IMG/VR virus record: IMGVR_UViG_3300009551_000060
Span: 1-48,121 of that record
Strand: one strand, 5' to 3'
DNA from: a virus
DNA: 48,121 nt
Each line of letters opens with the position of its first letter. Positions within the stretch are counted from its first letter, which is position 1. The notes under the pieces are model-generated. The model ran no database searches. It saw nothing but the letters and a program-made list of their open reading frames with translations, and was not told where the DNA came from. A program made the position numbers and the translations under genes. This document shows, in pieces, positions 22,030 through 48,121 of the stretch.

Positions 22030-22206
22030 CTACTTCGAGTGCATCTTCCCGCGCTTGATCGGCGCCGGCGCTGCGTAGTGCGCTCCTGCCTTGCGCTGGA
22101 CGCTGTAGCCAATCGCGACGGCTTGCGCGGGCGGTTTGCCAGCGGCGATCTCGGTCTTGATGTTGGTCTGTCGAGCGGTTTTGGATTTGGAGCGGATGAG
22201 GGGCAT
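22030..22206 (-). CDS. Conserved small phage protein (KAGKP-AVAI-YS type)
   Basis: 58 residues from ATG 22206 ([20 protein letters not shown]). The pattern N[25 protein letters not shown] is a motif I recognise from short basic proteins common in phages, whose function is not known. Last gene of the inverted cassette, ending TAG. Confidence 0.75.
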
Positions 22207-22215
22207 GGGCGTAGT

Positions 22216-22482
22216 CTACCGCTTCTCCCACACGCGATACGAGATGAGACCGTCTGGACCTCTTACGAAGTCCGCAACCAACTGTCGTTCGTCAGCCTCG
22301 AGCCGTTCAACGACGCTTGGCTGGTCCTGCGTCTTGCCGCGTTCGACCTCGGGCCAGCCGTCGAGCTGCGCAGCGAACCTGTCGTGATGCTCATCAGGGT
22401 TGTCGCTCGAGAACGTGCTGCGATACATCCGCTTGATGTTGGCAACGAAGTTCTCGATGCCGGTGACGGTTACGAGGCTCAT
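22216..22482 (-). CDS. Small phage protein, unknown function
   Basis: 88 residues from ATG 22482 (ATGA overlap with the upstream gene; an upstream ATG at 22500 is less likely). Contains ENFVANIKRMYRSTFSSDNP and an acidic helix. Function unknown. Confidence 0.65.
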   Translation of the reverse strand: MSLVTVTGIENFVANIKRMYRSTFSSDNPDEHHDRFAAQLDGWPEVERGKTQDQPSVVERLEADERQLVADFVRGPDGLISYRVWEKR

Positions 22483-22856
22483 CGCGTCGCAGCCTTCCAT
22501 CCGACCTTAGCGACCTTCAGCGCATGAGCGTGCACCGCCCCGAGCCCGTCGTCTCCGCTCGGAATGCGATCGAACGTGTGAAACAAGCTCGCCAGCTCTT
22601 TCGCGGTCTCGCCGACCGATTCGATTTGCGCCTTGAACGCGTCGAGTTTCGTCTTGAGAACATCGAGTCCGCACGAAATCAATTCATGCTCCTGCGCCGT
22701 GGGCTTGCGGTATTCGCCGCCGAAGAACCACTCTTCGTCGCGGTGGTTCATCGCGTCGTCGAGGATCTGCATGGCCAGGTCGAGATAGCGACGTACCTTG
22801 TCGACCTCGCCGTTCTCCATGTCCCAATCACAGTTGTCGAGACTGCCGCCACTCAT
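22479..22856 (-). CDS. Phage protein of the MSGGS-start type, unknown function
   Basis: 125 residues starting MSGGSLDNCDWDMENGEVDK, helical throughout. The MSGGS start followed by a helical bundle and the HRDEEWFFGGEYR segment resembles a group of phage proteins of unknown function. ATGA overlaps on both sides. Confidence 0.7.
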   Translation of the reverse strand: MSGGSLDNCDWDMENGEVDKVRRYLDLAMQILDDAMNHRDEEWFFGGEYRKPTAQEHELISCGLDVLKTKLDAFKAQIESVGETAKELASLFHTFDRIPSGDDGLGAVHAHALKVAKVGWKAATR

Positions 22857-23008
22857 GGACGCCTACGCGGCTTGATAACGCCGTTGACAGTTTGGCGAAC
22901 GTACTCGGACAGCGTGAGTTCAAGCGCGTCGGCGCACGACTGAAACCAGCGCTTGTCGGCGTAGCTGAGACGAAAATTGACCAGACGAGTCTTGTTCTCG
23001 CGCTTCAC
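22853..23008 (-). CDS. Putative ribbon-helix-helix DNA-binding protein
   Basis: 51 residues from GTG 23008 (GTGA overlap with the gene before it). Pattern: VNFRLSYADKRWFQSCADALELTLSEYVRQTVNGVIK, an RHH layout with strand, helix A, then LTLSEYVR as helix B. The longer in-frame start at 23044 is not needed. It may autoregulate the cassette together with the upstream gene. Confidence 0.65.
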   Translation of the reverse strand: MKRENKTRLVNFRLSYADKRWFQSCADALELTLSEYVRQTVNGVIKPRRRP

Positions 23009-23145
23009 CTCGCCACCGCCTTCCCGCACTGCATCCGTATCCACGCCGCGAGACTGCGCCCATCGGCTGTCGCTGCAGCTCGCCAGGACTGCAAGTCTTC
23101 GTCACTCAACAGTAGCTTGAACATCCGCGTCAGCTTCGGAGCCAT
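23005..23145 (-). CDS. 46-residue RHH/CopG-like protein, first gene of the inverted cassette
   Basis: ATG 23145 to TGA 23005. MFKLLLSDEDLQSWRAAATA followed by DGRSLAAWIRMQ follows the ribbon-helix-helix plan (strand, helix, turn, helix). Its ATG lies 7 bases after the -10 of a strong predicted promoter with no room for a Shine-Dalgarno sequence, so translation should be leaderless. Confidence 0.65.
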   Translation of the reverse strand: MAPKLTRMFKLLLSDEDLQSWRAAATADGRSLAAWIRMQCGKAVAR

Positions 23146-23152
23146 GGTGTCG

Positions 23153-23181
23153 ATTATGGGTAGATCATGCCCATACGTCAA
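23153..23181 (-). promoter_or_regulatory. Promoter of the inverted cassette
   Basis: Minus-strand TTGACG (23181-23176), 17-base spacer, CATAAT (23158-23153), then exactly 7 bases to the ATG at 23145. Each hexamer differs from the sigma-70 consensus at one position. Spacer and promoter-to-ATG distance equal those of the early-left promoter. The rest of the divergent gap (23182-23232) shows no convincing promoter or ribosome binding site for the portal gene. Confidence 0.7.
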
Positions 23182-23232
23182 TGGATCTTAGCATTTGGAG
23201 CGCATTCCCGTCCCGTGTACTCCTATCCATAG

Positions 23233-25251
23233 GTGGCCCGCGGTAAACCCATCCGTGCCAGACGCCGTCGCGACACTGACGACGACGGACCGCAGCGTTA
23301 CGTGCGCTGGTGGAAGGCATCGGGCGACGAGGACGCGGCCGGCGCGCTGTGGACCTGGATCGACCGACTCCGTACCCGCTGGGCCGCGGACAACTGGATC
23401 GACCTGGTTCACGAAGCGATCTACGAGGGTCGCCCGCTCGGCACATCCGGCGACTATCCGGCGCTGCAACACCTGCGGATGCGCCGCGCTGCACCTGCGA
23501 ACCTGAACGTAACGCAAGGCCTCGTCGACACCGCAACGGCTCGGCTCACCAAGCGCCGTCCGATGCCGTGCGTGTCCGCCGACGACGCGGGCTGGACCGA
23601 GAAGCTGTTTGCCAAGCGGACGTCGCGAATCCTGCGCCGCAAGATGGGCGGCTCGAAGATCGAGAAGATCAAGCCCGACATCATCCGCGACATGATCATC
23701 CGCGGCACGGGCTGCGCGAAGGTGGTCCGGTACGGCGGCGACGTCGCAGTCGAGCGGATTCCTATTTACGAGCTCGTCGTCGACCCACGAGAGGCCCGCT
23801 ACGGCGAGCCCCGCAGCCTGGCGCATATCAAGCCGATTCCGCGCGAGGTGCTGATCGAAGAGTTCCCCGAGCACGCCGAGGCGCTCGAGCAGGTGTCCGA
23901 GTTCACGCGCATGGACCCGTGGACGCAGTACGCCTACGACGGGCCGACGTTCAGCGATCACATCGAAGTCGGCGAGGCGTGGCACCTGCCGTCGGGGCCC
24001 AACGCGATTGACGGTCAGCACATCATCACGTGTCGCGGCGTCGTGCTCCTGCGCGAGCCGTGGAAGCGCCCGCGGTTCCCGATTGCGCGCTGCCACTGGT
24101 CCAACCCGCTGCGTGGATTCCGTGGTCGTGGTCTCGTCGAGCTGCTGTCCGGCCCGCAGGCGAAGCTCAACGACCTCATCCACGACATTCAGGAGGCCGT
24201 GTACTGGGCCGGCATGCTGCACGTGTTCCTGCCCCGCGGCGCGAACATCAACAAGCATCACCTGCGCGCGCGGCATCCTAACGTCGTCGAGACCGACGGG
24301 CCCGCGCCGACGTTCGTCCCGCCCAACGCGATCTCCCCGTCGACGATGCAGCTCGTGCACTTCGTCATCCAGGAGATGCACGACCTGTCCGGCATCGACC
24401 AGGGCAGCGCGACATCGCAGTCGAGCCTGGGTCCCGACGCGTCCGGCAAGGCGCTCGAGACGATGGAGGACATCAAGTCTGACCGCTTCGCGCATGTCGA
24501 GTCGGGTTGGATGCAGTTCAACGTCGAGCTTGGCCAGCTCCAGATCGACGAGGCCCGCGCGCTGTACGACGAGGCCCACGGCAATCCGCTCAAGGTCGAC
24601 GACCCGATCACGAAGAAAGAACTCGCCGCGTGGATCGCCGAGCACGACTGGAGCAAGGTCAAGATCGACGAGGGCGACTACCACCTCACGATCGAGCCGA
24701 TCAACTTCCTGCCCGATAGCCGCGCTGGAAAGCTTTCGTTCGTCAAGGAACTATCCGGCGCCGGCCTGATCCCCGATCCGACGATGACCGCGGCTCTCTT
24801 CGATGAGCCCGACATCGCGCGCGCGAATCGCAGTGTCCTCGGCGCCTACCACGCGCTCGAGTACATCATGGAGAAGCTCGCCGATCCGACCGTCCCGATG
24901 TTCGACATCGCGCCGGATCAGTCGATGAACCTGCCGCTTGGCGTGCTGATGGCCAAGGCGGAGCTCAACGAAGCCTTCTCGCTCGAAGCTCCCGACGAGG
25001 TACTCCAGCGCTATCGCGACTGGATCGAAGCCGCCAAAGGCGAGATCGACAAGGCCGCGAACGCGCCGAGCCTCGCCGGGATGCAGGCGAACAACATGGG
25101 CGCCTCGCCAAACGCCGCGACGCTACAGCCGGGCCTGGGCGGTGCGCCGCCTCCGATGGGACCGCCAGGCGCGGGACCGATGCCGATGCCGCCGGGTCCG
25201 GGTGGACCAGGTGTGCCGCAGGGATTGCCACAACAGGGAATGGCAGCATGA
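23233..25251 (+). CDS. Portal protein (podovirus-type)
   Basis: 672 residues from GTG 23233. Size, position after TerL and before scaffold and capsid, and the segment NPLRGFRGRGLVELLSGPQA followed by KLNDLIHDIQEAVYWAG (about 295-330) match the head-tail connector of T7-like phages. The C-terminus is a flexible Gly/Pro/Met tail (about 640-672). It should form the dodecameric ring at one vertex through which DNA enters and leaves. The GTG lacks an obvious ribosome binding site. Confidence 0.85.
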   Translation: MARGKPIRARRRRDTDDDGPQRYVRWWKASGDEDAAGALWTWIDRLRTRWAADNWIDLVHEAIYEGRPLGTSGDYPALQHLRMRRAAPANLNVTQGLVDTATARLTKRRPMPCVSADDAGWTEKLFAKRTSRILRRKMGGSKIEKIKPDIIRDMIIRGTGCAKVVRYGGDVAVERIPIYELVVDPREARYGEPRSLAHIKPIPREVLIEEFPEHAEALEQVSEFTRMDPWTQYAYDGPTFSDHIEVGEAWHLPSGPNAIDGQHIITCRGVVLLREPWKRPRFPIARCHWSNPLRGFRGRGLVELLSGPQAKLNDLIHDIQEAVYWAGMLHVFLPRGANINKHHLRARHPNVVETDGPAPTFVPPNAISPSTMQLVHFVIQEMHDLSGIDQGSATSQSSLGPDASGKALETMEDIKSDRFAHVESGWMQFNVELGQLQIDEARALYDEAHGNPLKVDDPITKKELAAWIAEHDWSKVKIDEGDYHLTIEPINFLPDSRAGKLSFVKELSGAGLIPDPTMTAALFDEPDIARANRSVLGAYHALEYIMEKLADPTVPMFDIAPDQSMNLPLGVLMAKAELNEAFSLEAPDEVLQRYRDWIEAAKGEIDKAANAPSLAGMQANNMGASPNAATLQPGLGGAPPPMGPPGAGPMPMPPGPGGPGVPQGLPQQGMAA

Positions 25252-25406
25252 GCAACGAACTCAAGACCGGTGACGACTACGACTCCAAGGCTGACTCGGA
25301 CGTCTGCAAAGACGCCGAGGCCAAGCCGGCGACGCCCAAGGGCGGACGTCTGGTCACGCCGGATAATCAGAAACTGATCGACGAGGCGCGGAGGATGCCC
25401 AAGTGA
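25248..25406 (+). CDS. 52-residue charged protein
   Basis: ATG 25248 (MSNELKTGDDYDSKADSDVC) to TGA 25406, ATGA overlap with the portal gene and GTGA overlap with the next. Highly hydrophilic, probably disordered. Function unknown. Confidence 0.65.
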   Translation: MSNELKTGDDYDSKADSDVCKDAEAKPATPKGGRLVTPDNQKLIDEARRMPK

Positions 25407-25567
25407 TCCGCGACGGCCACGACGGCTGGCAGCTCGAGACCTACTCCTGGTCAGAGCGCACCGGTATCGCGACACTCGTCTACGAGCATGCTGCGACTCG
25501 CAAGCACGTCGAGGTGCAGCGCGAGCAGCGGACGTACTTCACCTTCGGTAGCGAGGTGCAGTCGTGA
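25403..25567 (+). CDS. 54-residue protein, unknown function
   Basis: GTG 25403 to TGA 25567 (VIRDGHDGWQLETYSWSERT), a beta-rich sequence (GIATLVYEHAATRKHVEVQR). Four-base overlaps on both sides place it in the portal-scaffold operon. Confidence 0.65.
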   Translation: MIRDGHDGWQLETYSWSERTGIATLVYEHAATRKHVEVQREQRTYFTFGSEVQS

Positions 25568-26781
25568 GCGCCGACGACGATGACGACGACGCGCCGGCTA
25601 TCACGACCGGCATGGAAGCGCCTGACGCGCCCGACGGAACGCCGAACACCGAGATCATCGGAGGTCACGGCGGAGCATCGGAGGTGATCGCGCCGCCCAA
25701 GGGTCAACAGCGCGTTATCAGCGCGAAGGCCCGCGAGCTGTTCGCGAAGGCCGCGAAGTCGATGAAGGAGCAGCTCGCCGCGGACGACGACGAGTTCACC
25801 AACGGTCTTGCGACTGACGAGCCCGAGCCGGTCAAGCCCGAGGAGACTGCTGCGGTCGCCGCCGCGATCGTCGAGCCTGCCGCCGCTCCGCCGTCGGCGC
25901 CACCGCCTGCCGCAGCGCTCGACCCCTCGATCGAGCAGCACCGCCAGCGCCTCGACATGCGCCAGGCGGACCTCGACGCGCGCGAGAAGGCCATCGCCGA
26001 CCGCGAGAAGGTCGCGACGTCGAGCCTCGAGGACTACCAGAGCCGCTACTACGAGGACCCCGAAGGGACGCTCGTGGCGCTCATCCGTCGCATGACCGGC
26101 GCGGGCGACACCGACGACATCACCGAGGAAGTGGCGGACCTCATCACGGGTCTATCCGGCGCCGTGCTCAAGGTACCGCTCACGCCCGAGGTGAAGAACA
26201 ACCTACAGAGCAAGCGCGCGCTCAAGACCGTCAAGGCGCACAAGGCGCAGCTCAGCAAGATCGACGAAGCCCGCGAGGCCAAGCGCGTCGCGGCGCAGCA
26301 AGAAGAGGAGCGCGGCCGGGCCGTCACGACCCTGTCGCAACTCATCACCAAGGAGGAACACGCGAAGCAGTTTCCGTATCTGGCAGCAGAGGACAACGCG
26401 GGTGCGCTGATTTTCGACGTCATCGAGACTCAGCACAAACGCGACGGAACGATGCTGCAGTGGACGGAAGCCGCCAAGCGGGCCAACGACTACTTGAACC
26501 AGCAATGGCAGCGCCATTACGACAAGCGCCGCCACCTGCTTAGCGCAGCGCCCGACAAGGCGCCGCCGAAGCCAGCCGAAGCGATCGTGCCTCAGGGAGA
26601 CCCGTCAGGGATTCGCAGGTCACACACGATCACCAACGCAGCATCGGCAGCGACTGCCACTCCCAAGCCAAAGCAGCCGGATTCTCCGACTGTCGACGCG
26701 AACGGCAAGTGGGATCGGAGCGCTCACCGTGCTCGGACCGTCGCGAAGTATCGCGCCGCGTTCAAGCCGTCCGAGGAGTAG
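25564..26781 (+). CDS. Putative capsid scaffold protein
   Basis: 405 residues from GTG 25564. Acidic N-terminus, Pro/Ala-rich linker (about 95-115), a long coiled-coil middle (HRQRLDMRQADLDAREKAIA), then helices and a basic C-terminus. Its position directly before the major capsid gene and its helical, charged composition are those of podovirus scaffold proteins. It ends TAG. No protease domain seen. Confidence 0.7.
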   Translation: MSADDDDDDAPAITTGMEAPDAPDGTPNTEIIGGHGGASEVIAPPKGQQRVISAKARELFAKAAKSMKEQLAADDDEFTNGLATDEPEPVKPEETAAVAAAIVEPAAAPPSAPPPAAALDPSIEQHRQRLDMRQADLDAREKAIADREKVATSSLEDYQSRYYEDPEGTLVALIRRMTGAGDTDDITEEVADLITGLSGAVLKVPLTPEVKNNLQSKRALKTVKAHKAQLSKIDEAREAKRVAAQQEEERGRAVTTLSQLITKEEHAKQFPYLAAEDNAGALIFDVIETQHKRDGTMLQWTEAAKRANDYLNQQWQRHYDKRRHLLSAAPDKAPPKPAEAIVPQGDPSGIRRSHTITNAASAATATPKPKQPDSPTVDANGKWDRSAHRARTVAKYRAAFKPSEE

Positions 26782-26802
26782 CGGACGATTCACGGGCGCC
26801 GA

Positions 26803-26837
26803 GCAGGTCAACACACGTCGATGAAAGTGTGACCTGC
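26803..26837 (+). promoter_or_regulatory. RNA hairpin just upstream of the capsid gene
   Basis: Arms GCAGGTCA-a-CAC (26803-26814) and GTGTGACCTGC (26827-26837) pair over 11 bp with a single-base bulge around a 12-base loop. The stem ends one base before the ATG at 26839, in the 57-base gap after the scaffold gene. It could stabilise or process the capsid mRNA or control initiation; there is no T-tract, so it is not a typical terminator. Confidence 0.65.
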
Positions 26838-26838
26838 G

Positions 26839-28089
26839 ATGAGTGGTTTGAACCTTACGAATTACGATCCAATGCTCAAGGAGCACTACGCTCCTGGCAT
26901 CGTGGCCAATCTGGCCATGCAGAAGAACAAGGCCATCGGCATGATGGCCAAGAAGAACAAGAAGCCCGGCGGCGGTCGCGAGTGGGTGCAGCCGATTCAG
27001 TTCGGCATGCCCGGCGGCGGTTCGACGGACTTCCCGACCGCGCTCGCTGCGAGCAACAACAACTCGCAATACGGCGTGTTCCAGGTCAAGCGGGCCAAGC
27101 ACTACCGCTTCGCGAAAGTCGACAACGAGACGATCGAGGCGACGGCCGACGGCGACATGGACGCCTTCGAGCCGGCGTTCGACGAGTTCGATCGCGCGAT
27201 CGAGGCCGAGGGCAATTACCTCAACTTCCGCTTCTTCCGTTCGGGCGGCGGCTCGATCGGCAAGATGACCAACACCGCGTTCAACACCGCGGTGATGACG
27301 CTCGACGACGCCGCGGGCGTCTGGGGCGTGGTCAAGGGTGACGTCCTCAACCTGTCGACGGCGAACGGCAAGAGCGGCGCGCTCAAGGCCGGCTCGCTGA
27401 CGGTGGCGAGCGTGCAGCGTCGCGCCGGCACGATCACGTTCACGGGCAACATCTCCGCGGGTGTCGCGACGGCGGCGACGAACGATTTCGTGTTCCTCGC
27501 CGGCGACTTCCTCGGCTCGGGCAACGGCGGCTCGATGGCCGGTCTCATCGACTGGATTCCGGATACGGATCCGTCGGACACGTTCTTCAACGTCGACCGC
27601 TCGCAGGATCCCGACATGTTGGGCGGCCTGCGCGTCGATGGTACGGACGGTCGACCGGTCCACGAGCTCCTGATCGACATGGTCGTCGAGGCGGACAACA
27701 TGGGCGCGGAGCCCGACGTCGTGCTCGCGAACCCGCGCACGCTCGGCAACCTGTCCAAGCAGCTCGAGGGCAAGTGGATCATCCAGAAGGGCTCGGGCTA
27801 CTCGGGCTCGAACCCGGACATCGGCTACAAGGGCTGGCAGGTCGAGCTCGAGGGGCACTCGGTGACGGTCTTCTCGGACCGCTGCTGCCAGGTCGACCAC
27901 CTCTGGATGCTCCAGATGGACACGTGGACGATGTTCTCGGCCGGGCCGGCGCTGAACTTCCTGCAGAAGCGGGCGGGTTCGATCATCAAGGTCAGCGAGA
28001 ACGCCGACGCGTACGAGGCCCGCATCGGCGAGTACGCCAACTTCGCGTGCAAGGCGCCGGGTTGGAACGTCCAGGGTCGCCGCGCCTAA
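26839..28089 (+). CDS. Major capsid protein (HK97-like fold)
   Basis: 416 residues (MSGLNLTNYDPMLKEHYAPG). Position after the scaffold, length, and the C-terminal pattern DVVLANPRTLGNLSKQL, VTVFSDRCCQVDHLWMLQMD and AYEARIGEYANFACKAPGWN are those of podovirus-type capsid proteins. No N-terminal delta domain is apparent, in keeping with a separate scaffold. No Shine-Dalgarno sequence lies directly upstream; a hairpin occupies that place. Confidence 0.88.
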   Translation: MSGLNLTNYDPMLKEHYAPGIVANLAMQKNKAIGMMAKKNKKPGGGREWVQPIQFGMPGGGSTDFPTALAASNNNSQYGVFQVKRAKHYRFAKVDNETIEATADGDMDAFEPAFDEFDRAIEAEGNYLNFRFFRSGGGSIGKMTNTAFNTAVMTLDDAAGVWGVVKGDVLNLSTANGKSGALKAGSLTVASVQRRAGTITFTGNISAGVATAATNDFVFLAGDFLGSGNGGSMAGLIDWIPDTDPSDTFFNVDRSQDPDMLGGLRVDGTDGRPVHELLIDMVVEADNMGAEPDVVLANPRTLGNLSKQLEGKWIIQKGSGYSGSNPDIGYKGWQVELEGHSVTVFSDRCCQVDHLWMLQMDTWTMFSAGPALNFLQKRAGSIIKVSENADAYEARIGEYANFACKAPGWNVQGRRA

Positions 28090-28110
28090 CCGAAGGAAAG
28101 GAGAAATACA

Positions 28111-28887
28111 ATGAGCAACGCAAAGACCTACTTCATCGACCCGGCGATCCTCAGCCAGCAGTCGATTTCCGGTAAGGCCTCGCTGACGTCCGATCCGACC
28201 GCCGCTTTCTGGGGCACCGGCGCGGGTAACGGCATCCTCAACGGCCTCAACTACAACCACGGCTTCGAGGTTCTCGACACGACCGCCACGGCGATCGCGC
28301 TCGACGTGTACCGTACCGATCTCGTCGTCAGTAGCACGATGGCGTTCACGCTCGCCGCGCCGCTGTTCGACGGTCAGCGCAAGTACATCGTCTGCAAGTC
28401 GGCGGCTTCGACGCCGGCCGCGACGTTGACGATCACGAACCCCGAGACGGCTTCGGGATTCGCCTGCGCGTCCACGTTCTTCTTCGACACCGCAGGTCAG
28501 GCCATCCTGCTCCGCGGCGTCGGCGGACTGTGGCGCGCCGAGCGCGTCGATCGCGCTGGCGGCACGGCGAACAACGTCGTGGTCGGCACCACGGTGCTCA
28601 CGGGTCTCAACCTGTGGGCGTCGTACTTCTGCTCGGTCACCGGCACGGTGTCGAGCACGACGACCAAGGGCATCCCGAACGGGTCGGCGATCGGCGAGCT
28701 GATGGCGGTGCGTGTCTCGACGGCTGCGTCGATTCCGTCCGGCACGATCGCGATCACGGCGCTGACCTCGGCGGGTGCTGCGGCGACGACGCTCGGCACG
28801 ATGGCCGCGGTCGCGAACTACGCGACGTGTCGATGGAACGGCACGGCATGGGAAGTCATCGGCAACAGCACGCTGGTGACCTCGTAA
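28111..28887 (+). CDS. Putative capsid decoration or head-associated protein
   Basis: 258 residues, preceded by a strong AAAGGAG. Ala/Thr/Gly-rich beta sequence (GFEVLDTTATAIALDVYRTD, TAWEVIGNSTLVTS). It directly follows the capsid gene and has its own strong ribosome binding site, consistent with high expression. A decoration or head-fibre role is inferred from position. Confidence 0.65.
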   Translation: MSNAKTYFIDPAILSQQSISGKASLTSDPTAAFWGTGAGNGILNGLNYNHGFEVLDTTATAIALDVYRTDLVVSSTMAFTLAAPLFDGQRKYIVCKSAASTPAATLTITNPETASGFACASTFFFDTAGQAILLRGVGGLWRAERVDRAGGTANNVVVGTTVLTGLNLWASYFCSVTGTVSSTTTKGIPNGSAIGELMAVRVSTAASIPSGTIAITALTSAGAAATTLGTMAAVANYATCRWNGTAWEVIGNSTLVTS

Positions 28888-28897
28888 GGAGGACGTC

Positions 28898-29326
28898 ATG
28901 AACAGGGGCAAAGACCACAAGTTCAGCATTCCGCACTCCACCGTCGACTTCGTTGTCGCCGCGATGGGCGCGGGTGCTGCGGCTCCGACGGTGCCGCTCA
29001 ACGGCAAGCTGACGCCAACGACCGCGACGTATCCGATTCGCGCAAATGGCATCAGCAAGCTGTCGACGGAAATCCCGACCCGGACTTCCGCAGGGCTCTA
29101 CGTCATTACGTACAGCCACCTCCTGCCGACGATGTTGTTCGCGACCGGCTCGGTCGTGAGCGCCGGCAACTCGCCTACGGCGGCGCTCGTGGCCGACGTG
29201 ACGATCATCGATCAGGTCAATCGCAAGCTGACGGTTCTCGTCTCGACACCCGCGGGTGTCGCGACGGACCTCGGCACGAGCGACATGCTGATCGTGCTCT
29301 GCCAGGCGCAGGACAGCTCGGTGTAA
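28898..29326 (+). CDS. Putative head decoration protein
   Basis: 142 residues with AAGGAGG upstream. Mostly beta (SAGLYVITYSHLLPTMLFAT, KLTVLVSTPAGVAT), compact, without cysteine pairs. Small beta proteins with strong ribosome binding sites right after the capsid gene are usually capsid cement; direct evidence is lacking. Confidence 0.6.
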   Translation: MNRGKDHKFSIPHSTVDFVVAAMGAGAAAPTVPLNGKLTPTTATYPIRANGISKLSTEIPTRTSAGLYVITYSHLLPTMLFATGSVVSAGNSPTAALVADVTIIDQVNRKLTVLVSTPAGVATDLGTSDMLIVLCQAQDSSV

Positions 29327-29329
29327 CGA

Positions 29330-29800
29330 ATGCGGCTGGTTGTCACAGGTTCATGCTTGAGTGCCATTGCGCTGCAATGGGAGTCGGCGCTCGTTCCGAT
29401 GGTGATTCGTCACCCGGATCCAGCGCCGACGGTCGAGCTCGAGTTGGCCTATGGCAACCCGCCACAGCTGTCTTTTCGACTGGACTCGCACCGCGACACG
29501 GTCGAGCCCTGTCGAAAGCACAGCCCATTCAATGTTTCGACGACCACGCTGACGTACTTCCCCGGCCAGCGACTCGCGCGCGCGTGGGTTGCAGCGGCAT
29601 GGGCTGGCTACGTCATGCACGAAGCACTCGAACTCGTCACGGTTGACGGCGTCCGGCCGATCGATCCGCACGCGAGCCCGAGCCTTGATGTCTGTCTTCG
29701 CGTCGGCATTCCGCCACTGCTTACCCCCGATACGCTGCGGGCCTCGCTGGGCGTTGTGATGACGTCCGAGGCAGTCAGCGCGCTCATGGAGGCCGCATGA
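29330..29800 (+). CDS. Virion-region protein, unknown function
   Basis: 156 residues. An N-terminal beta half (VELELAYGNPPQLSFRLDSH) and a helical middle (QRLARAWVAAAWAGYVMHEA). ATGA overlap with the adaptor gene. It could be a head-completion protein by position only. Confidence 0.55.
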   Translation: MRLVVTGSCLSAIALQWESALVPMVIRHPDPAPTVELELAYGNPPQLSFRLDSHRDTVEPCRKHSPFNVSTTTLTYFPGQRLARAWVAAAWAGYVMHEALELVTVDGVRPIDPHASPSLDVCLRVGIPPLLTPDTLRASLGVVMTSEAVSALMEAA

Positions 29801-30471
29801 GCTACACGCGCACGCTGCTGCAGTTGCGGACCGCTGTGCAAATCAACGGTCAGTACGAAAACAGCACGGACATCACGACGACGGTCCTGAACGACTACAT
29901 CAACCGGTCGATCCTGGAAGGCTATCAGCTCATCGTCGCGAAGTGGGAGGACTACTACACGATCTTGGGCACGACGATCTCGGTTGTCGCGAACACGGAC
30001 AGCTATGCGTTGCCGACGGACTTCTACAAGCTTCGCAAGCTCGAGATTCAGACGACGAACGGTCGTTGGACGAAGCTTCTGCCGCACGATCTCGACTCGT
30101 CGCACACGTTCCGTACGATCATCAACCGCCGCTACCGCTATCGCCTGCAGGCCGGCAATATCGTGCTCGTTCCGACGCCGACGGGTCCCGAGACGATTCG
30201 GCCCTACTATATCCCGACGGCGCCTCAGCTCGCAGCCGACGGAGACACGATCACGTTCGACGTCCCGCAGGAAGAGACGTTGATCATCGACCTAGCGTTG
30301 CGTCGCTGTTTCCGTCGCGAAGACCTGCCGACGAATGACATCAACGCGCAGATTGCCGAGGACGTCGCGAACCTACGATCGGCGGCGGATGCGCGAGATG
30401 CGGGCGAGCCGTTCTACCTGAATCCGCGAGGCCCGGATCGCGACGTCGACGACTGGGAGGACGACTACTAA
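29797..30471 (+). CDS. Tail adaptor (tail tubular protein A/gp11-like)
   Basis: 224 residues. The sequence runs as gp11-like adaptors do: an N-terminal helix pair (LNDYINRSILEGYQLIVAKW), VANTDSYALPTDFYKLRKLE, then NIVLVPTPTGPETIRPYYIP and a C-terminal helical part. It should bind under the portal ring and connect the nozzle. Family inferred from this pattern and gene order. Confidence 0.75.
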   Translation: MSYTRTLLQLRTAVQINGQYENSTDITTTVLNDYINRSILEGYQLIVAKWEDYYTILGTTISVVANTDSYALPTDFYKLRKLEIQTTNGRWTKLLPHDLDSSHTFRTIINRRYRYRLQAGNIVLVPTPTGPETIRPYYIPTAPQLAADGDTITFDVPQEETLIIDLALRRCFRREDLPTNDINAQIAEDVANLRSAADARDAGEPFYLNPRGPDRDVDDWEDDY

Positions 30472-30815
30472 TGCCGGCTCGTCGCATCCGTCGTCCTGGT
30501 CCGCGTAGCCAGCTACTGACTGGCACGCAGCTGACCACCGATCCCGACGCTGGTGCGCGACTGCTCAGCGATCTCTCGTCGGCGCACCAGGAGCTCGAGC
30601 GTCGTGTCGAGCCACGTGCCATCTTCGCGGTCGACCTCCCCGTCGGTGCGACGCGCATCAATCACAAGCTCGGCCGCAAGGCTCGGCATGTCGCGATCGG
30701 GCCGACGACCGCCGATGCCACCTGGGCGTGGGCGTGGGCGAACGACGGCGACGCCACGGTGGTGATCACGACGGTTGGTGTCCCGCAGACCGCAGCAAGT
30801 GTGGAGGTGACATGA
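30471..30815 (+). CDS. Small virion-region protein
   Basis: 114 residues. A basic N-terminus, then DLSSAHQELERRVEPRAIFAVD and a beta-rich second half (GATRINHKLGRKARHVAIGP). It starts on the last base of the adaptor stop codon. Possibly a small tail or fibre-attachment protein. Confidence 0.6.
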   Translation: MPARRIRRPGPRSQLLTGTQLTTDPDAGARLLSDLSSAHQELERRVEPRAIFAVDLPVGATRINHKLGRKARHVAIGPTTADATWAWAWANDGDATVVITTVGVPQTAASVEVT

Positions 30816-31861
30816 CCACGCCGATGAATCTCAACTACCCGATCGACCACGGGGACGTGGATATCTGGGGGCCGTTGGTCAACACGGCACTGTCGACGGT
30901 GGAGGTGCACAACCACACGACGGGACAGGGCAATCCGATCCCGGCGGCGGCTCTGCAGATCAACGCCGACGTCTCGTGGTCGTTTGCCGGCACGAACTAC
31001 GCGATCAAAGACCTGCGCGCGATCGACCTGACGCCAGTGGCGGCCTCGACGGTCGTTGGTCTCGCCGATGCGTTCTTTGCAAACAGCGACGACAGCAACG
31101 AGCTGTACTACCGGAGCCACACCGGCACGAACATCAAGATCACGAACAGCGGGGCGCTCAATGTCTCGATCGTCGGCGGTATCGGTGGCGACTACTCCAG
31201 CGTCGGCGCGCTGCTGTCCTACGACGACGCGACACGCCGGTATCTACTCCAGCAGGAGGGCTCGCCACGACCGTGGGCGGGGCTAGCGACGGCGGACATC
31301 GACCTGTATCAGAAGGCTGCGAGCATCGTTAACAAGGTGACGCTCAAGAGCCCGGCAGCGCTAGCGGCGAGCTACGCGGTGACGTGGCCCGCGGCCCTGC
31401 CGGCAACGACGGCGACACTACGGATGGACGTTGCGGGCGCGCTAAGTGTTAGTCCGACGACATTCACCCTACTTATCCCCGCGTCGGCCGCAAACGCGGT
31501 CAACGGTAGTACGAGCACGCGCGGTTCGTTTGGCTGGACGATTCTCGACGCTGTATCTATTGTGTATCCGATTGCACTGGACGCAGGATGCAAGATTACG
31601 GGATGGAAGTTCTTTGCCGGTAAGACAACGAACAACACCAAGACGCTGACCGCGACATTGTTGGAGCTTGTTGAGCCGTCGACGTCAAACACGATCGATA
31701 CGCTCACGAATAGCGCAAATGCACCGGGGGCGATCACGCTCAGCAATACGGGCTTAGCCAAGACGCTCGCAGTCGGTGCGCAGTATTACGCGACGTTTCA
31801 GGGGACCACCACCGCAGGCGACACGGTCGCCCATCTCGAGGTCACGTACACGCGACCGTAG
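30812..31861 (+). CDS. Putative tail fibre protein
   Basis: 349 residues from ATG 30812. The N-terminus (MTTPMNLNYPIDHGDVDIWG) and the VEVHNHTTGQGNPIPAAALQ segment are typical of fibre proteins that begin with an attachment domain and an HxHxxGxGxxI-like turn. The rest is repetitive Thr/Ala/Ser-rich beta sequence. A receptor-binding role is probable but not shown. It ends TAG two bases before the nozzle gene. Confidence 0.65.
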   Translation: MTTPMNLNYPIDHGDVDIWGPLVNTALSTVEVHNHTTGQGNPIPAAALQINADVSWSFAGTNYAIKDLRAIDLTPVAASTVVGLADAFFANSDDSNELYYRSHTGTNIKITNSGALNVSIVGGIGGDYSSVGALLSYDDATRRYLLQQEGSPRPWAGLATADIDLYQKAASIVNKVTLKSPAALAASYAVTWPAALPATTATLRMDVAGALSVSPTTFTLLIPASAANAVNGSTSTRGSFGWTILDAVSIVYPIALDAGCKITGWKFFAGKTTNNTKTLTATLLELVEPSTSNTIDTLTNSANAPGAITLSNTGLAKTLAVGAQYYATFQGTTTAGDTVAHLEVTYTRP

Positions 31862-31863
31862 CC

Positions 31864-34800
31864 ATGCCGATTCAGAAGCAAGCCATAGCGATTACGTTTT
31901 CGGGGGGCCTGGAAACGAAACAAGATTCAAAGCAAGTCCCGACGACTAAGCTTCTCGATCTTCAAAACGCGACCTTCATCAAAGCCACGACCCTCGCGAA
32001 GCGCAACGGCTATCGCGCGCTCGGTCGTCAGCGCGACACGAATGCAGCCGTCATCACCGGCACGCGTGGCCTCGGTAAGCGTGACTCCGAGCTACTCCTC
32101 TTCAGCGACGACGCCTGTTTCTCGTATCGTCCGTCCTTCGACAACTGGTCGCTCGTCGGCGAGGTAGCGTCTGTGGTCGCGACTGACGACCCGATCGCGC
32201 GTACCGGCACCGCGCAGACGATTCCGGACATCGCCGACAACGGGGGCGCTCGCGTCGTCGCGTGGGAGGACAGCCGCGGCGGGGTTTGGTGCTCGGTCGT
32301 CGAGGCGACTACGGGGCGCATCCTGCTTGCACAACGCCAGCTCGACGCGAGCGGCATCAGTCCGCGTTGCGTCGCCGCAGGGACGACCCTGCTCGTCTTG
32401 TGGCTGAACGTATCCCAGGGACGCATCTGGGCGGCGATCGTCAACCCGGTCAATCCCGAGGCGATTCCGCCCAGCGTCATCGTCACTGAAGACCTGAGCA
32501 AAACGAACCCTGTTTACGACGCCGAGCCGACGACGCTCTTTCCGACGCAGGCACCCGCCATCCTCGTCTGGGCGCAGAGCGGCGGCGGCTATCGACTCGG
32601 CTACCTGACCGGGGCTGGTGTCCTCGGTTCGCCCACGAACGGTCTGCCGAGTGTCGCGACCGAAGACCCGACAAACGCATTCGACGGCCCGGTCTGCGTC
32701 TCGTCGTCCGCGTCGACGATCGCGGTCGGTTACTGCGATGCCGGCGACGGCACGACGATGAACTTTCACACGCCGAGCTCGCTGGTGCGCTTTGGCACCG
32801 CGGTCGTCAGTGCGACGCTTCCTGGATCGACCTGGGCGCGCATCACGTGCGGCCTCGATGGCGCGGGCGTTTGCTGGTGGGCCAACGAGTCGCAGGAGGT
32901 CGACGACTCGGCGCGCAACCTCATCATCTCAGGGCAAACGACGGCAGCGGCGAGTCCGGTCACGAGCGGCATCACGACGCTTCGCGGACATGGGCTTATC
33001 TCGCGAGCGTTTGTCGACAACGGCCAGGTCTACGCCGCTGTCGCGCACGGTGTCGTCTTCTTCCCGTATGTCGCGATCGTCAAACTGTCGGCGACGAACG
33101 GCATCGCTGGCGGTAATACGGTCGCGGTCGGGCGCCTGCTCGCTGGCGAATCGACCGGCCTCGGTATTCGCCGCCTTGGCGTGGGCAGCTACCAGCTCAC
33201 GCGCCACGTCTCGAGCGTGTTGTCGTCGGGACGTCAGCACCTCGTAGCGCTCTGCAACCGCATCCAGCTCGAATCCGCCAGCGGCGATCAGTTCGGCGAG
33301 TCGGGCATTCGTATCGCAACGCTCGACTTCGACCACGACGGTGCCTACCAGACGTCGCAGCTCGGTCGGAATCTCTACCTCGGCGGTGCGATTCCGCAGT
33401 GCTATGATGGAGACAAGTGGACTGAAGCGGACTTTCACTGCGCGCCGGATGTCGGCGTCAGCCAGAGCACCGGGGCTGTGCAGACGATTGCGACGACGGC
33501 GCTCGCCAGTGGTGGTCTCGCGGCGGGCACGTACGGCTACAAGTTCATCTACGAGGACGTCGACTCCCAGGGCGAGATCCATCCCGGTGCGGTCAGCGTC
33601 GAGGTCAACATCGTCGTCGACTCCGATGGCGGACCCGTGTCGATCGCGATTCCGACGTGCCGACTCAGCAACCGCCGCGCGATTCGCATCGGCGTTTTCC
33701 GCTCGCCCAAGAACCAGACGGGTGATCCAGAATCGATTCCGTTCTATCGCGTGTCGGGTCTCGATCCGAACGTGCAGACCGGCAACAACCGGTTCGTCGC
33801 TAACGATCCGACAGTCGATACGGTCACGTTTATCGACAACCTTGACGACTCGCTGTTGATCGAGCGTGAGCCGCTCTACACCAACGGCGGCATCCTCAGC
33901 AACGATCCGCCTCCGATGGCTGGCGATATCCTCGTCGGCGGCAAATCGCGGCTGTACTGGACCGATCAGGGCGACCGCAACAAGGTCTTCTTCAGTCAAG
34001 AACTGCGCGACGACACCGCCGCGGAGATGCCCGAAGGCAACTCGATCCGTATCGATCCGTTCGGTGGCGACATCACCGGCATCGGCACGATCGACGGAAC
34101 CACGATCGTCTTCAAGGAAGCGTGCATCTTCATGTTCGGTGGACCCGGACCGGATGCCGACGGCGGACTTACATCGCAGAACGCGTTCTCGCCGCCCCAG
34201 CTCCTGACCTCTGACGTTGGCTGCGTCGCGCCCGCGAGCATCACCTCGACGCCGCTCGGCGTGACGTTTCAGTCCGCTAAGGGACTCAAGCTGATCGGCC
34301 GCGACCTCCAGGTGACCGACATCGGCTCGTCGGTCTATGCGTACAAGGACCAGACGATCACGCGCGCGACGCTCCTGCCCGATCGTCATCAAGTCGTGTT
34401 CCTGACCGACGCAGGGCGGACGCTGCTGTTCGACTACGAGCATCAGCAGTGGTCGACGTATACCAACCACGAAGGTCTCGATGCAGTCGTGGTCGACAAC
34501 GTCTACTACTACCTGCGTACCGATGGCCGCGTGTTCCAGGAAACGCCCGGCATCTACAAAGACGACAACAGTCACATCAAGATGGTGATCGAAACGGCCT
34601 GGATCAAGATGCTGGGCTACCTGCAGGGCTGGCAGAAGATTCTCCGCGCGAAGTTCATCGGCGCGTACAAGTCTGAGCACGTGCTGCGCGTGCGCATGCG
34701 GCTCGATTATCAGGACGGTTACTCGACGCCCGTTGACAATCCTGTCGACGACAACTACGACCCGCATCTGTACGGAGCGGAAACGTACGGCACCGGGCCG

Positions 34801-42000: not shown

Positions 42001-42140
42001 CTGCGAATCCAGACTACGGAGCGTTTCTCCAGCAGGGCTACAAGCCAACACCACCATCACCGCAGCCGAATCAGGGAGTCGGCGGGAATGTCACCCTCGG
42101 AACACGAGTGGGGACGTCGTTTGACTCTCGAGGAGGCTAG
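39078..42140 (+). CDS. Putative internal virion (DNA ejection) protein
   Basis: 1020 residues. The N-terminus contains glycine-rich hydrophobic helices (GWKGTAIAGGMGVARGVSFG, SDVIGAGMGLG, GRVGGRIVGGALEGAGQGAG), then very long charged helices (about 210-700), a second hydrophobic region (LLRMLGVPIPDPRNIPVVGP, about 710-730) and a helical C-terminus. This composition suits a protein that crosses membranes during genome ejection. No transglycosylase motif found. Confidence 0.65.
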   Translation: MPDDKTTNVVLGTGETKALTDAEIPYALQTGGHIEGAGEGYERAAQERQDAATKGWKGTAIAGGMGVARGVSFGVSDVIGAGMGLGPQMEAYRQAHPDAALGGEVVGALIDPAGIYGTLGRAGERFGARVIGEGIAGRVGGRIVGGALEGAGQGAGSYVSDVALGDRPLSADAFMGAMGKGALWGGVGAGALSIGSEGLASARRMFPAGEVTEAAVAKAEQEAAQEMGDHLKDSGDLQQAGEKQLETRRTQRAAADPEFAAKQNAIKLEYQKAVAEERLSTIRAAEEAKRAKITSKSGDDFLDNAMPKGARRRAFVSDETLDKIDAQGVAGSPAEQIANVFGTAKNSATDGFIDSMWDRVQNNRPIPRMGAVENELRDLQKAGKLVTRDDVEAIVNRASSSPASQLEQQLRATKNALDEGTPLGKLSGSTRGTVDDALNEHLASVDSSAKEILDSVNNLKASRSELGDWLDKYGQNNVAKFERSQAARDYAEGMRPKQAGYYTKVPAGEGNVMVPRGRYSQFRGTPAEQDAIDAEFYNGVLNSDRALANDRAGEFARIDEMLDGRSPIQASARDIIEAQPEPGEAPPIDEHVKQALRAKGEDFGGDLNKSAEAIGKYEQANADLAEKLGDAAPPSAKARGEGFREAQKTAADKTAQQAVNVARDMANAQAKGPAALVRQVTQSKPGQTLKHIAGGVDKALQGAELLRMLGVPIPDPRNIPVVGPLLSMYLKARVASKIMRRIGGGVERTAETVIASKAAVTRAEMYTAIDTMLAGASRKLDAAAPFAGAPTAALAHTLFDDRQPGERKPYTSKPKADDLPAMYLARTEELNKASQPGAVERAVKARIQTSDPEILQEIVASYQRKLDFYNSKWPRPNEPPGLLAPDNPYIPPRSELAKVGRYIEAGENPVGVFQAAAAGQFVPSEHIEAVAAIYPPLYADAQKRLVLKMSERKATVPYKQRQQMSRLFGVPLDSTANPDYGAFLQQGYKPTPPSPQPNQGVGGNVTLGTRVGTSFDSRGG

Positions 42141-45161: not shown

Positions 45162-45611
45162 ATGAGCAAGTCGATTCGGATTCTGATTCTCACGTTCGGC
45201 ATCCTCGCCGGCTACACCGTTGCCTCGCACGCCGATTCGGGCAGCGCGGTCGCACTCGATGCGGGCGTCGCGGCAACAGGCAGCGCAGTCGCCGCACCTC
45301 CGACTCTACCCGATCCGACCGTCGACCCGGGCGCGGCGCTCAGCACGGCCCGCTCCGACCTCGCCACCTACGGCTACGTGTGGGGCGGCGCGGCCATCCT
45401 GCTCGGCCTGCTCGCGGCGTTCAAGAAGGGCAACGACGCGTCGCACTGGATCTCGAATCAGTATGCTGTCGCGGCGCTGACTGCGATCCCGACGATCATC
45501 ACGGCGCTGCTCTTGTGGAAGTTCGGCGGCGGCTCGACGGGCGGCATGCTCGGGACGGTCGTTGCCGCACTGGCGCTGCTCTACCCGACCGGGGCGAAGG
45601 CGGCGGCGTGA
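45162..45611 (+). CDS. Holin-like membrane protein
   Basis: 149 residues from ATG 45162 (GAGGG upstream; the in-frame ATG at 45132 lacks one). A signal-peptide-like start (MSKSIRILILTFGILAGYTV, possible cleavage after ASHA) is followed by an Ala/Pro-rich stretch and three membrane segments (about 70-87, 101-120, 126-145). Position next to the spanins and lysozyme suggests a holin. The soluble stretch and signal peptide are unusual, so a structural or transport role remains possible. Confidence 0.6.
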   Translation: MSKSIRILILTFGILAGYTVASHADSGSAVALDAGVAATGSAVAAPPTLPDPTVDPGAALSTARSDLATYGYVWGGAAILLGLLAAFKKGNDASHWISNQYAVAALTAIPTIITALLLWKFGGGSTGGMLGTVVAALALLYPTGAKAAA

Positions 45612-45757
45612 GTGAGCACGACCGAGATGACTGGGCGACGCTCTGCGAGTCGCTCGGCATACCACCTCCTAGCTATGCAACCGCAGGCCCGTACTCGTTG
45701 ATCGGCTACGACCCGCGCTTCGACAACGGCATCCGCCACGACGAGGGCGAGGGCTGA
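45608..45757 (+). CDS. 49-residue protein, unknown function
   Basis: GTG 45608 to TGA 45757 (VSEHDRDDWATLCESLGIPP), ending YDPRFDNGIRHDEGEG. The acidic end resembles the tail VRYDEGED of the small protein at 47298-47456. GTGA overlap upstream; the next ATG begins on its stop codon. Confidence 0.6.
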   Translation: MSEHDRDDWATLCESLGIPPPSYATAGPYSLIGYDPRFDNGIRHDEGEG

Positions 45758-46149
45758 TGCGCTTTGGCGCACGCATACGCGAGGCGCGAGTCGCAAAGAA
45801 GATGACGCTGCGCGGTCTCGCCGCGACCGTAGGCGTCTCGGCGCCGTTCATGTCCGACGTCGAGCGCGATCGGAGCGGAATCTCGCGCGAGAAACTGGAA
45901 AAGGTATGTGCGGTTCTCGGCATCGAGATGCCCGCACCGAGGTCCAAGGAGGAGTCAATGTCGCCGCTGGAACGCGCTGAACGTCTCGTCGCAATCGTAA
46001 AGCTACTCGAAGGCATGACGCCGGAGGATGCTCGGTGTTGTCTTGAAGCGGCCGAATCGATGCTGCCTGCGAAGGCAAAGCCACCCAGCAGCAAGCCCAT
46101 GTGGGAGGGAATGCAGACCGGCCCCATCGGCGGGATGACGGCACGCTGA
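45757..46149 (+). CDS. XRE-family regulator in the lysis region
   Basis: 130 residues from ATG 45757. An N-terminal HTH_XRE domain: FGARIREARVAKKMTLRGLA, then ATVGVSAPFMSDVERDRSGI and LEKVCAVLGI (1-57). A C-terminal helical part with LLEGMTPEDARCCLEAAESM (about 82-101) follows. Its place among lysis genes suggests late-gene or lysis timing control, or a second switch protein. Confidence 0.8.
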   Translation: MRFGARIREARVAKKMTLRGLAATVGVSAPFMSDVERDRSGISREKLEKVCAVLGIEMPAPRSKEESMSPLERAERLVAIVKLLEGMTPEDARCCLEAAESMLPAKAKPPSSKPMWEGMQTGPIGGMTAR

Positions 46150-46211
46150 TGCGCTGGCTCCGCTTCGTCTGGCGCTTCGAGCTCGCGGCGTGGGAGAGGA
46201 ACTGCGCGTGA
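46149..46211 (+). CDS. 20-residue peptide ORF
   Basis: ATG 46149 to TGA 46211 (MRWLRFVWRFELAAWERNCA), amphipathic and Trp/Arg-rich. It is coupled to the regulator (TGATG) and to the next frame (GTGA). Too short for certainty; it may be a translational relay or a membrane-active peptide. Confidence 0.35.
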   Translation: MRWLRFVWRFELAAWERNCA

Positions 46212-46306
46212 GTCGCATGCGTTTGTTCGCGTGGACTATCGGCGTCGCGGCGTGGCTGCCCGAACACGAGCCCGTATTCCTGCGTCCGCTGCGGAGATAC
46301 GCATGA
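46208..46306 (+). CDS. 32-residue peptide ORF
   Basis: GTG 46208 to TGA 46306 (MSRMRLFAWTIGVAAWLPEH), with a short hydrophobic segment then an Arg-rich end. Part of a chain of overlapping small frames; weak evidence on its own. Confidence 0.35.
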   Translation: MSRMRLFAWTIGVAAWLPEHEPVFLRPLRRYA

Positions 46307-46386
46307 TCTGGCTCGTCCTCTTCATCGGCGCGCTCGGCATCTCCGCGCTGTCGTTCGCTGCGGGGTACGCGTGGAGGAAGCCATGA
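46303..46386 (+). CDS. 27-residue transmembrane peptide
   Basis: ATG 46303 to TGA 46386: a single hydrophobic helix (MIWLVLFIGALGISALSFAA) with a basic end (YAWRKP), typical of tiny phage membrane peptides. ATGA overlaps at both ends. Could assist or inhibit the holin. Confidence 0.5.
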   Translation: MIWLVLFIGALGISALSFAAGYAWRKP

Positions 46387-46466
46387 CCGCCCGTCTCGCC
46401 CACATCCTCTACAGCGCTTGGTTTCGCAAGCGCGTCGGCAAGATGAAAGCGTTGAGGTGGAACTGA
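46383..46466 (+). CDS. 27-residue basic peptide
   Basis: ATG 46383 to TGA 46466 (MTARLAHILYSAWFRKRVGK), amphipathic and basic; overlaps neighbours by ATGA and TGATG. Function unknown. Confidence 0.4.
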   Translation: MTARLAHILYSAWFRKRVGKMKALRWN

Positions 46467-46729
46467 TGGCGTCCATCGGATTCTATTGCGGGCCGTGGTA
46501 TCTGCGCGTGTGGTGGTGGCTTCGTCGTCGCTTCGGTAAGCGATGCCCGGGCCCGCTATATCTTGCCGACCAAGGCATCGAAGTCTGCTCGGCGTGCGGA
46601 GGCTGCACGTGCTGCGAGCACCCGCACGTTGACCATTCCAAGGCGCCACATGAGTGTCAGCGCGGCCTAGACGGCGACTGTCTGTATGACGGAATGCGCG
46701 GCCATGTCTGCGAGGTGCCCAGTGTCTGA
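46466..46729 (+). CDS. Cys-rich small protein
   Basis: 87 residues from ATG 46466. A basic Trp-rich N-terminus (WYLRVWWWLRRRFGKR), then nine cysteines with His (CSACGGCTCCEHPHVDHSKA, CQRGLDGDC), a likely zinc or disulfide domain. Its stop overlaps the start of the spanin gene. Confidence 0.65.
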   Translation: MASIGFYCGPWYLRVWWWLRRRFGKRCPGPLYLADQGIEVCSACGGCTCCEHPHVDHSKAPHECQRGLDGDCLYDGMRGHVCEVPSV

Positions 46730-47189
46730 CGCCGCCATCATCGCCATCTGCGTATTCGGCGTCGTCGCGCTCGCGGTCATCTGTTACGCGCTGTACTCGT
46801 CCAACAAATAGACGGCCCGCGGCGACGCTGCTCAAGCCGTCGAGGAGCAAGCCGTCCGCGCGCAGGAAGTCGCCGAGCAGACGCGAGACCAGGAGCATGT
46901 GGCGAGGGTTGCGGCGGAGACAGCGCTGGAGGACATGCGAACTCAGTACACGTCCATGCAACTCGCGTGGACGAACATCAACCAGGAGCACCTCGATGCG
47001 ATCGGCAAAGCAATCAGTTCTGGTGATAGCGATGCTGCTATCGCCGCTATCAGGCGCGTGTGGTCCCAAGCCGCTTCCACCGGAGCCGCCCACGCCGCCA
47101 CCGGTGGTCAAGCTGCAGCCGCTGCCGCCGTGCAACCCACCTCCGGTGTCGCCAGCGCCGACGTGGCCAAGCCTGATCCCAGACCCTGA
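46722..47189 (+). pseudogene. Inner-membrane spanin (Rz-like) with an in-frame amber codon
   Basis: GTG 46722 encodes VSDAAIIAICVFGVVALAVI and a short tail ending SSNK, then TAG at 46809-46811. The same frame continues for 125 codons as a charged helix (DAAQAVEEQAVRAQEVAEQT, MARVAAETALEDMRTQY...) to TGA 47189. Membrane anchor plus periplasmic coiled coil, with a lipoprotein gene nested in the +1 frame, is the Rz/Rz1 design. The amber separates anchor from coiled coil, so the gene is interrupted, read through, or a low-frequency variant. The downstream part alone has a possible GTG start at 46899. Confidence 0.65.
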
Positions 47190-47301
47190 TGGAGTTCATC
47201 TGCGCGCCAAGAACGCCGACTTTGCGGACGCAACGGTCTACGTGGCCTCGCTCCAGGCGCGGCTGCGCGTTGTCGAGGCGTGCGCGGGGGTGAAGCCGTG
47301 A
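46996..47301 (+). CDS. Outer-membrane spanin lipoprotein (Rz1-like), nested
   Basis: 101 residues from ATG 46996 with AGGAG upstream. Signal peptide MRSAKQSVLVIAMLLSPLSG ends at a lipobox-like SGAC (Cys22), followed by a very Pro-rich stretch (PKPLPPEPPTPPPVVKLQPL), as in Rz1-type outer spanins. It overlaps the inner-spanin frame for 194 bases in the +1 frame and runs past it. It should bridge to the inner spanin to fuse the membranes at lysis. Confidence 0.82.
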   Translation: MRSAKQSVLVIAMLLSPLSGACGPKPLPPEPPTPPPVVKLQPLPPCNPPPVSPAPTWPSLIPDPDGVHLRAKNADFADATVYVASLQARLRVVEACAGVKP

Positions 47302-47456
47302 CGGTCTGTCTGGTATGCGGCGGTGATTGTTATACGGAGCAGTCCGCGTTCGTCGGGACTGTCGAAGAATTCGCTGCGCTTCTCGATGAGGCGTACGGAG
47401 AACTTCGCCGCCTCATCTCGGACGATGGTGTTCGCTACGACGAAGGAGAGGACTGA
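47298..47456 (+). CDS. 52-residue protein, unknown function
   Basis: GTG 47298 to TGA 47456 (VTVCLVCGGDCYTEQSAFVG), with C-x2-C-x3-C then an acidic helix ending DDGVRYDEGED. GTGA overlap upstream; the lysozyme ATG starts on its stop codon. Confidence 0.6.
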   Translation: MTVCLVCGGDCYTEQSAFVGTVEEFAALLDEAYGELRRLISDDGVRYDEGED

Positions 47457-48121
47457 TGACCGCATTGCAGCCGTTGATATGCGACCGCTACGCCCCCGAT
47501 GGCCCGGTCGATCCGCACGTCCTCATGGACGACCCGCGCTTCGTCGGCCTGTGCTTGAAACTCGCCCAGGGCCGCAACCCGGCGTACGCGAGCGGCGCGT
47601 GGTGTCGCAACCTGTTCGCCGTCGCGCAGAAGCACAAGCGGTGGGCGCAGGACTTCTTTGGGCGCGTCTACTACTACTTCGACTTTGGGACGCCCGGCCG
47701 CATCCAGTGCGACTACGCGCTGTCCCTCGTCGAACAGTACGGCCTAGGCGGACCGGGGATGTTGCCAATGATGATCGACGTCGAGCGCGGCGGCGAGAAC
47801 CCGGCGACGCTGACCAAGGACAACGTGATCGACGTGACGCAGACGTTCGCCGAGCGCTACTACGAGCGGACCGGGAAGCGGCCGACGCTCTACGCTGGCG
47901 AGCTGCCGCGGGCGCTTGGCATCACGAGCAAGATGGGGTGCGACCGGCTCGCGGTGGCCCGGTACACGCCGACGCTGCCGATGAGCTGCTACCAGAGCAT
48001 GGGGTGGGAGACCGTGAGCGAGTGGCAGTACTGCGGGACGGACCCGCAGAGCGACGAGCAGAGCCTGGCCGGGTACCCGCGGGTCGCGCCTGGTTGCTCG
48101 GGGCTGTCGGATATCAGCGTG
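47456..48121 (+). CDS. GH25-like lysozyme (endolysin), cut by the window edge
   Basis: 222 codons visible from ATG 47456, open to the edge. PLICDRYAPDGPVDPHVLMD then VGLCLKLAQG, VYYYFDFGTPGRIQCDYALS, PMMIDVERGG and SEWQYCG follow the strand order of GH25 muramidases, with the D-x-E pair in IDVE. No signal peptide is present, so release would depend on the holin. The C-terminus, and any cell-wall-binding domain, lies outside. Confidence 0.8.
   Translation, partial: MTALQPLICDRYAPDGPVDPHVLMDDPRFVGLCLKLAQGRNPAYASGAWCRNLFAVAQKHKRWAQDFFGRVYYYFDFGTPGRIQCDYALSLVEQYGLGGPGMLPMMIDVERGGENPATLTKDNVIDVTQTFAERYYERTGKRPTLYAGELPRALGITSKMGCDRLAVARYTPTLPMSCYQSMGWETVSEWQYCGTDPQSDEQSLAGYPRVAPGCSGLSDISV

Follow-up and report, generated by a model that had tools for sequence, protein, structure and literature searches.

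Spanin pairs whose two genes share sequence include the overlapped two-component spanins of the P2 type (Kongari et al., PMC6139136) and the embedded Rz/Rz1 pair of phage lambda. In both, the inner spanin begins with a membrane anchor at its N-terminus and continues as a helical domain; in the overlapped type, the outer spanin is a proline-rich lipobox lipoprotein, encoded in the +1 frame, which runs past the stop codon of the inner spanin close to the endolysin gene. Singletons make up over 40% of spanin families, and shaken lambda cultures lyse without spanins as long as the outer membrane is not stabilised by divalent cations (PMC6139136). Lambda Rz alleles with nonsense codons at sites along the periplasmic domain are lysis-defective (PMC5295617). 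The locus described here has the anatomy of the overlapped type and differs from the described P2-type and lambda spanins in that its inner frame is broken by a TAG codon, which we consider probably to be a nonsense allele.

Gene content of the contig

The window analysed is a whole IMG/VR virus record of 48,121 bases with 64% GC, whose plus strand carries, in order, genes for a terminase, a portal, a major head protein, an internal virion protein, a protein with an endosialidase-chaperone domain and an esterase-PKD protein. An endolysin gene of glycosyl hydrolase family 25 (GH25; 47456..48121, plus strand; PF01183, E=6e-7, exceeding the curated cut-off) is cut by the contig end, so that the contig is open at that end and the genome perhaps incomplete. 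The lysis region also includes a plus-strand gene for a membrane protein with a signal peptide (45162..45611, coding score +83.5), a candidate holin that gave no family match in profile searches, and a Cro/C1-type helix-turn-helix regulator at 45757-46149. A chain of mini-ORFs of 20, 29, 27, 27 and 87 aa, most of them joined by stop/start overlaps (TGATG, ATGA), extends over 46149-46729; one of its members, at 46303-46386, encodes a 27-residue peptide with a single membrane span (coding score +13.9), and the product of the 87-aa mini-ORF has no homologue in the viral contigs.

A candidate overlapped spanin cassette near the endolysin gene

The inner spanin frame (46722-47189) starts at a GTG codon that shares bases with the TGA of the upstream gene (GTGTCTGA) and is preceded at 4 nt by a Shine-Dalgarno-like GAGGTG (46712..46717, plus strand); in-frame translation could also begin at ATG 46704 or ATG 46686. 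Its translation bears out the initial annotation, which described a frame open on both sides of a stop codon: a 29-residue peptide with one predicted transmembrane helix (VSDAAIIAICVFGVVALAVICYALYSSNK; 46722..46808, plus strand) is followed by TAG at 46809..46811 (plus strand, context AAA TAG ACG) and then by 125 open codons (46812..47189, plus strand) that end at TGA 47187-47189 and appear, from translation, codon score and an AlphaFold model, to encode a helical periplasmic-type domain. One uninterrupted inner spanin frame is thus not present, the break being TAG 46809-46811. Residues 6-24 are the most hydrophobic 19-residue stretch (mean Kyte-Doolittle 2.93) and would form the N-terminal transmembrane helix. 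With regard to an N-in/C-out topology, Lys/Arg residues follow the helix, whereas, if translation starts at GTG 46722, no basic residue precedes it, in contrast to P2-type and lambda inner spanins; a start at ATG 46704 adds an Arg.

AlphaFold, run on the single sequence of the read-through product with no alignment (mean pLDDT 80), predicts helices for residues 3-99, a segment that spans the stop, and 103-136. The helical periplasmic domain of the model supports the assignment as an inner spanin but is no proof of it, such helices being easily predicted; the domain would be present only if the TAG is decoded, and coiled-coil pairing is a separate matter from the predicted helices. A structure search gave zero matches at E<0.001.

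The outer spanin candidate (46996..47301, plus strand) is a proline-rich protein of 101 aa; it has a signal peptide, and its lipobox, LSGAC (Cys 22), was assigned by inspection. It is encoded in the +1 frame relative to the inner spanin, runs 112 nt past the inner spanin end at 47189, and has an AGGAG Shine-Dalgarno sequence at 46984-46988. The open reading frame is uninterrupted, as had been claimed for the outer spanin nested in the other frame. Unlike described spanins, the pair shows no sequence similarity at a significant E-value: the best profile match of the outer spanin candidate was to phrog_456, an Rz-like spanin, at only E=0.63, and the inner spanin had no family match in the profile libraries. 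Because so many spanin families are singletons (PMC6139136), however, a missing profile match says little. Spanin identity is therefore inferred from anatomy, which supports well the reading of 46722-47301, together with the nearby GH25 endolysin gene, as an overlapped two-component spanin cassette; the anchor, the coil and the overlapping lipoprotein of the initial spanin assignment are well supported by anatomy, with no family match to join it. The locus adds an orphan overlapped pair to the known spanins.

Coding signal on both sides of the amber codon

Codon usage was modelled on 17 genes of the window. The resulting log-odds were +11.9 bits for the 29 codons 5' of the TAG and +22.4 bits for the 61 codons between the TAG and the outer-spanin overlap, against -23 to -44 for the two remaining forward frames, which supports coding in the same plus-strand frame on both sides of the stop. 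No further lesion occurs in this frame after the TAG. The 61 codons also favour the plus strand over the minus-strand mirror frame by +17.2 bits, and on this strand discrimination a minus-strand ORF at 47135-46236 (299 aa) was rejected as the gene here. A frameshift into the +1 frame, which would bypass the TAG, was likewise rejected, that frame scoring -43.6 bits at 46813-46995 and not being coding before the lipoprotein start.

The weakest stretch runs from the TAG over 29 codons to GTG 46899, the earliest ATG/GTG/TTG after the stop in this frame. Its score of +8.3 was matched by 11 of 1255 wrong-frame windows, and comparison with the mirror frame (-3.1 bits for the plus strand) does not separate the two. 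Since stops occur at only about 2% per codon in wrong frames, open length alone is not significant. A scan of the 48-kb window for internal stops flanked by coding signal, with no restart close by, yielded 46809 alone, whereas an internal-stop scan of 1.1 Mb of relatives gave six distinct weak candidates, in most of which another frame scores equal or higher. The codon-score method alone thus has a background, and the case for the stop in the spanin frame rests on the added anatomy.

TAG as an ordinary terminator

TAG terminates five of the 17 genes checked, at 26781, 31861, 35376 and 36344, all four cited in the initial annotation, and at 42140; the sequence beyond these genes is not coding. 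ARAGORN found no tRNA, including a suppressor with a CUA anticodon, in the 48-kb contig, where a tRNA past the open endolysin end could be missed; in the searched loci of relatives it found only two, both arginine tRNAs. Decoding of TAG as an amino acid throughout, by the phage or its host, would liken this contig to code-15 phages, in which the recoded genes include those for lysis and other late functions and with which it has in common an in-frame TAG in a lysis gene. In contrast to those phages, however, the in-frame TAG is single here, no second one flanked by coding sequence occurring in the window, and TAG is an ordinary terminator elsewhere. On the grounds of the TAG-ended genes and the absent tRNA we reject genome-wide or late-gene recoding as largely refuted and give it almost no weight, and the earlier judgement that recoding of the genome is unlikely is upheld.

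Homologue searches and variation between samples

Searches of viral contigs with the inner spanin, the outer spanin, the upstream gene and the endolysin gave no homologue, nor did searches of phage records with the same four queries. No inner spanin or endolysin homologue was found in GTDB genomes, and no inner spanin homologue in 50 related contigs. The exact DNA around the stop, with the stop codon left free, was absent from viral contigs. A record from another sample, IMGVR_UViG_3300025924_000372, matches positions 22065-32653 at 99.95% identity, with five substitutions in 10,589 bases, two of them non-synonymous. The match stops short of the spanin region; its five differences indicate that variants segregate between samples.

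Interpretation of the interrupted inner spanin frame

We think it probable that the locus is an otherwise intact overlapped spanin cassette carrying an amber allele of the inner spanin; on this view, either the sampled phage population acquired a real mutation recently, or the consensus of the metagenome shows a base that is wrong or in the minority. This reading follows from the coding character of both sides in one frame, the lack of a later lesion and the position of the TAG as the sole internal stop in 48 kb; it is favoured further because TAG is an ordinary terminator, no tRNA is found, the RNA folds like its shuffles (see below) and variants occur between samples. Under standard decoding, the outer spanin would be made, and the inner spanin would be made only as a 29-residue membrane stub, which presumably does nothing. 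The frame bears no other lesion, suggesting that the stop is recent. In view of the lysis-defective nonsense alleles of lambda Rz (PMC5295617), the interrupted inner spanin should not work normally without readthrough, and a gene that works by normal decoding would not be expected to retain the stop. A null allele is not necessarily lethal and may be tolerable, however, as the lambda spanins are dispensable in shaken culture (PMC6139136). The amber alleles of lambda Rz (PMC5295617) are similar in that one amber codon breaks the inner spanin frame and the outer spanin stays intact, but they are laboratory constructs with a lysis defect, whereas the present stop belongs to a metagenome contig and is known from the consensus alone.

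The three options offered in the initial annotation were programmed or suppressor-dependent readthrough, a real mutation, and an assembly or variant base; the last two stand, while readthrough is weakened by the absent tRNA, the shuffle-like folding and the lack of a homologue. Readthrough, whether programmed or due to a host amber suppressor, would meter out full-length inner spanin in small quantity, and the terminated membrane stub could then inhibit or serve as a dummy anchor. The coding signal that does not decay after the TAG is predicted by this explanation as well; the stop is placed between anchor and coil, and, with no start codon in the first 29 codons past the TAG, the full-length product needs UAG decoding. 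In a survey of bacterial genes, in-frame stops were reported to be widespread and to show signs of purifying selection (PMC7918605), which also speaks for readthrough. Against it, the folding 3' of the TAG is no stronger than that of shuffled sequences in three segments (z +0.6 to +1.4), and the segment that contains a hairpin around the stop (46759-46769 paired with 46819-46829) has z -0.46; a 3' structure is not required at every readthrough site, however. The initial annotation proposed a search for a host amber-suppressor tRNA; the tRNA search made here covered the window, which holds no tRNA. A suppressor could be encoded by the host, and the contig is open at its endolysin end. Moreover, no homologue was found that could show the stop to be conserved. 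With no positive sign of programmed readthrough, and with nothing found in support of programmed or suppressor-dependent decoding, we regard readthrough as unlikely. The more specific proposal of a regulatory amber stop, fixed in a phage of otherwise standard code, with rare readthrough metering the inner spanin, a functional 29-residue stub and outer-membrane disruption timed by termination, appears more doubtful still. Were readthrough real, it would represent a new mode of spanin control and a case of recoding in an otherwise standard-code phage; a single stop in a single metagenome contig is weak evidence for recoding.

It is also improbable, in our estimation, that the 29-residue membrane peptide constitutes a small protein in its own right, the coil being either unmade or translated separately from GTG 46899 (ORF 46899..47189, plus strand), the only early in-frame start 3' of the stop. 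Such a peptide would suit the chain of tiny ORFs upstream, with its overlapping or abutting stop-start junctions and the membrane peptide at 46303-46386, and the frame signal is weakest in just the 29 codons that directly follow the stop. Those codons nevertheless favour frame 0 (8.3 versus -5.8 and -29.8 in the other plus-strand frames), are predicted to be helical, and are unreachable from any start past the stop. The Shine-Dalgarno sequence of GTG 46899 (AGGAG, 46891-46895) is badly spaced, at 3 nt, and without its anchor a coil would be unable to serve as an inner spanin. The coding signal and the missing start in these 29 codons argue, though not decisively, against a standalone peptide.

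Lysis regions of related phages

Relatives were recognised by their major capsid protein, which shares up to 73% identity with that of the window. They are syntenic with the window to about 44.4 kb, past which those examined have different lysis genes. One related contig encodes an endolysin 38% identical to that of the window and is without the spanin pair. The syntenic relatives examined seem to lack the segment 45612-47456, from the membrane protein to the endolysin, or to have something else in its place; their lysis genes and lipoproteins are different ones, and the replacement appears to represent a swap of the lysis module within this phage group.
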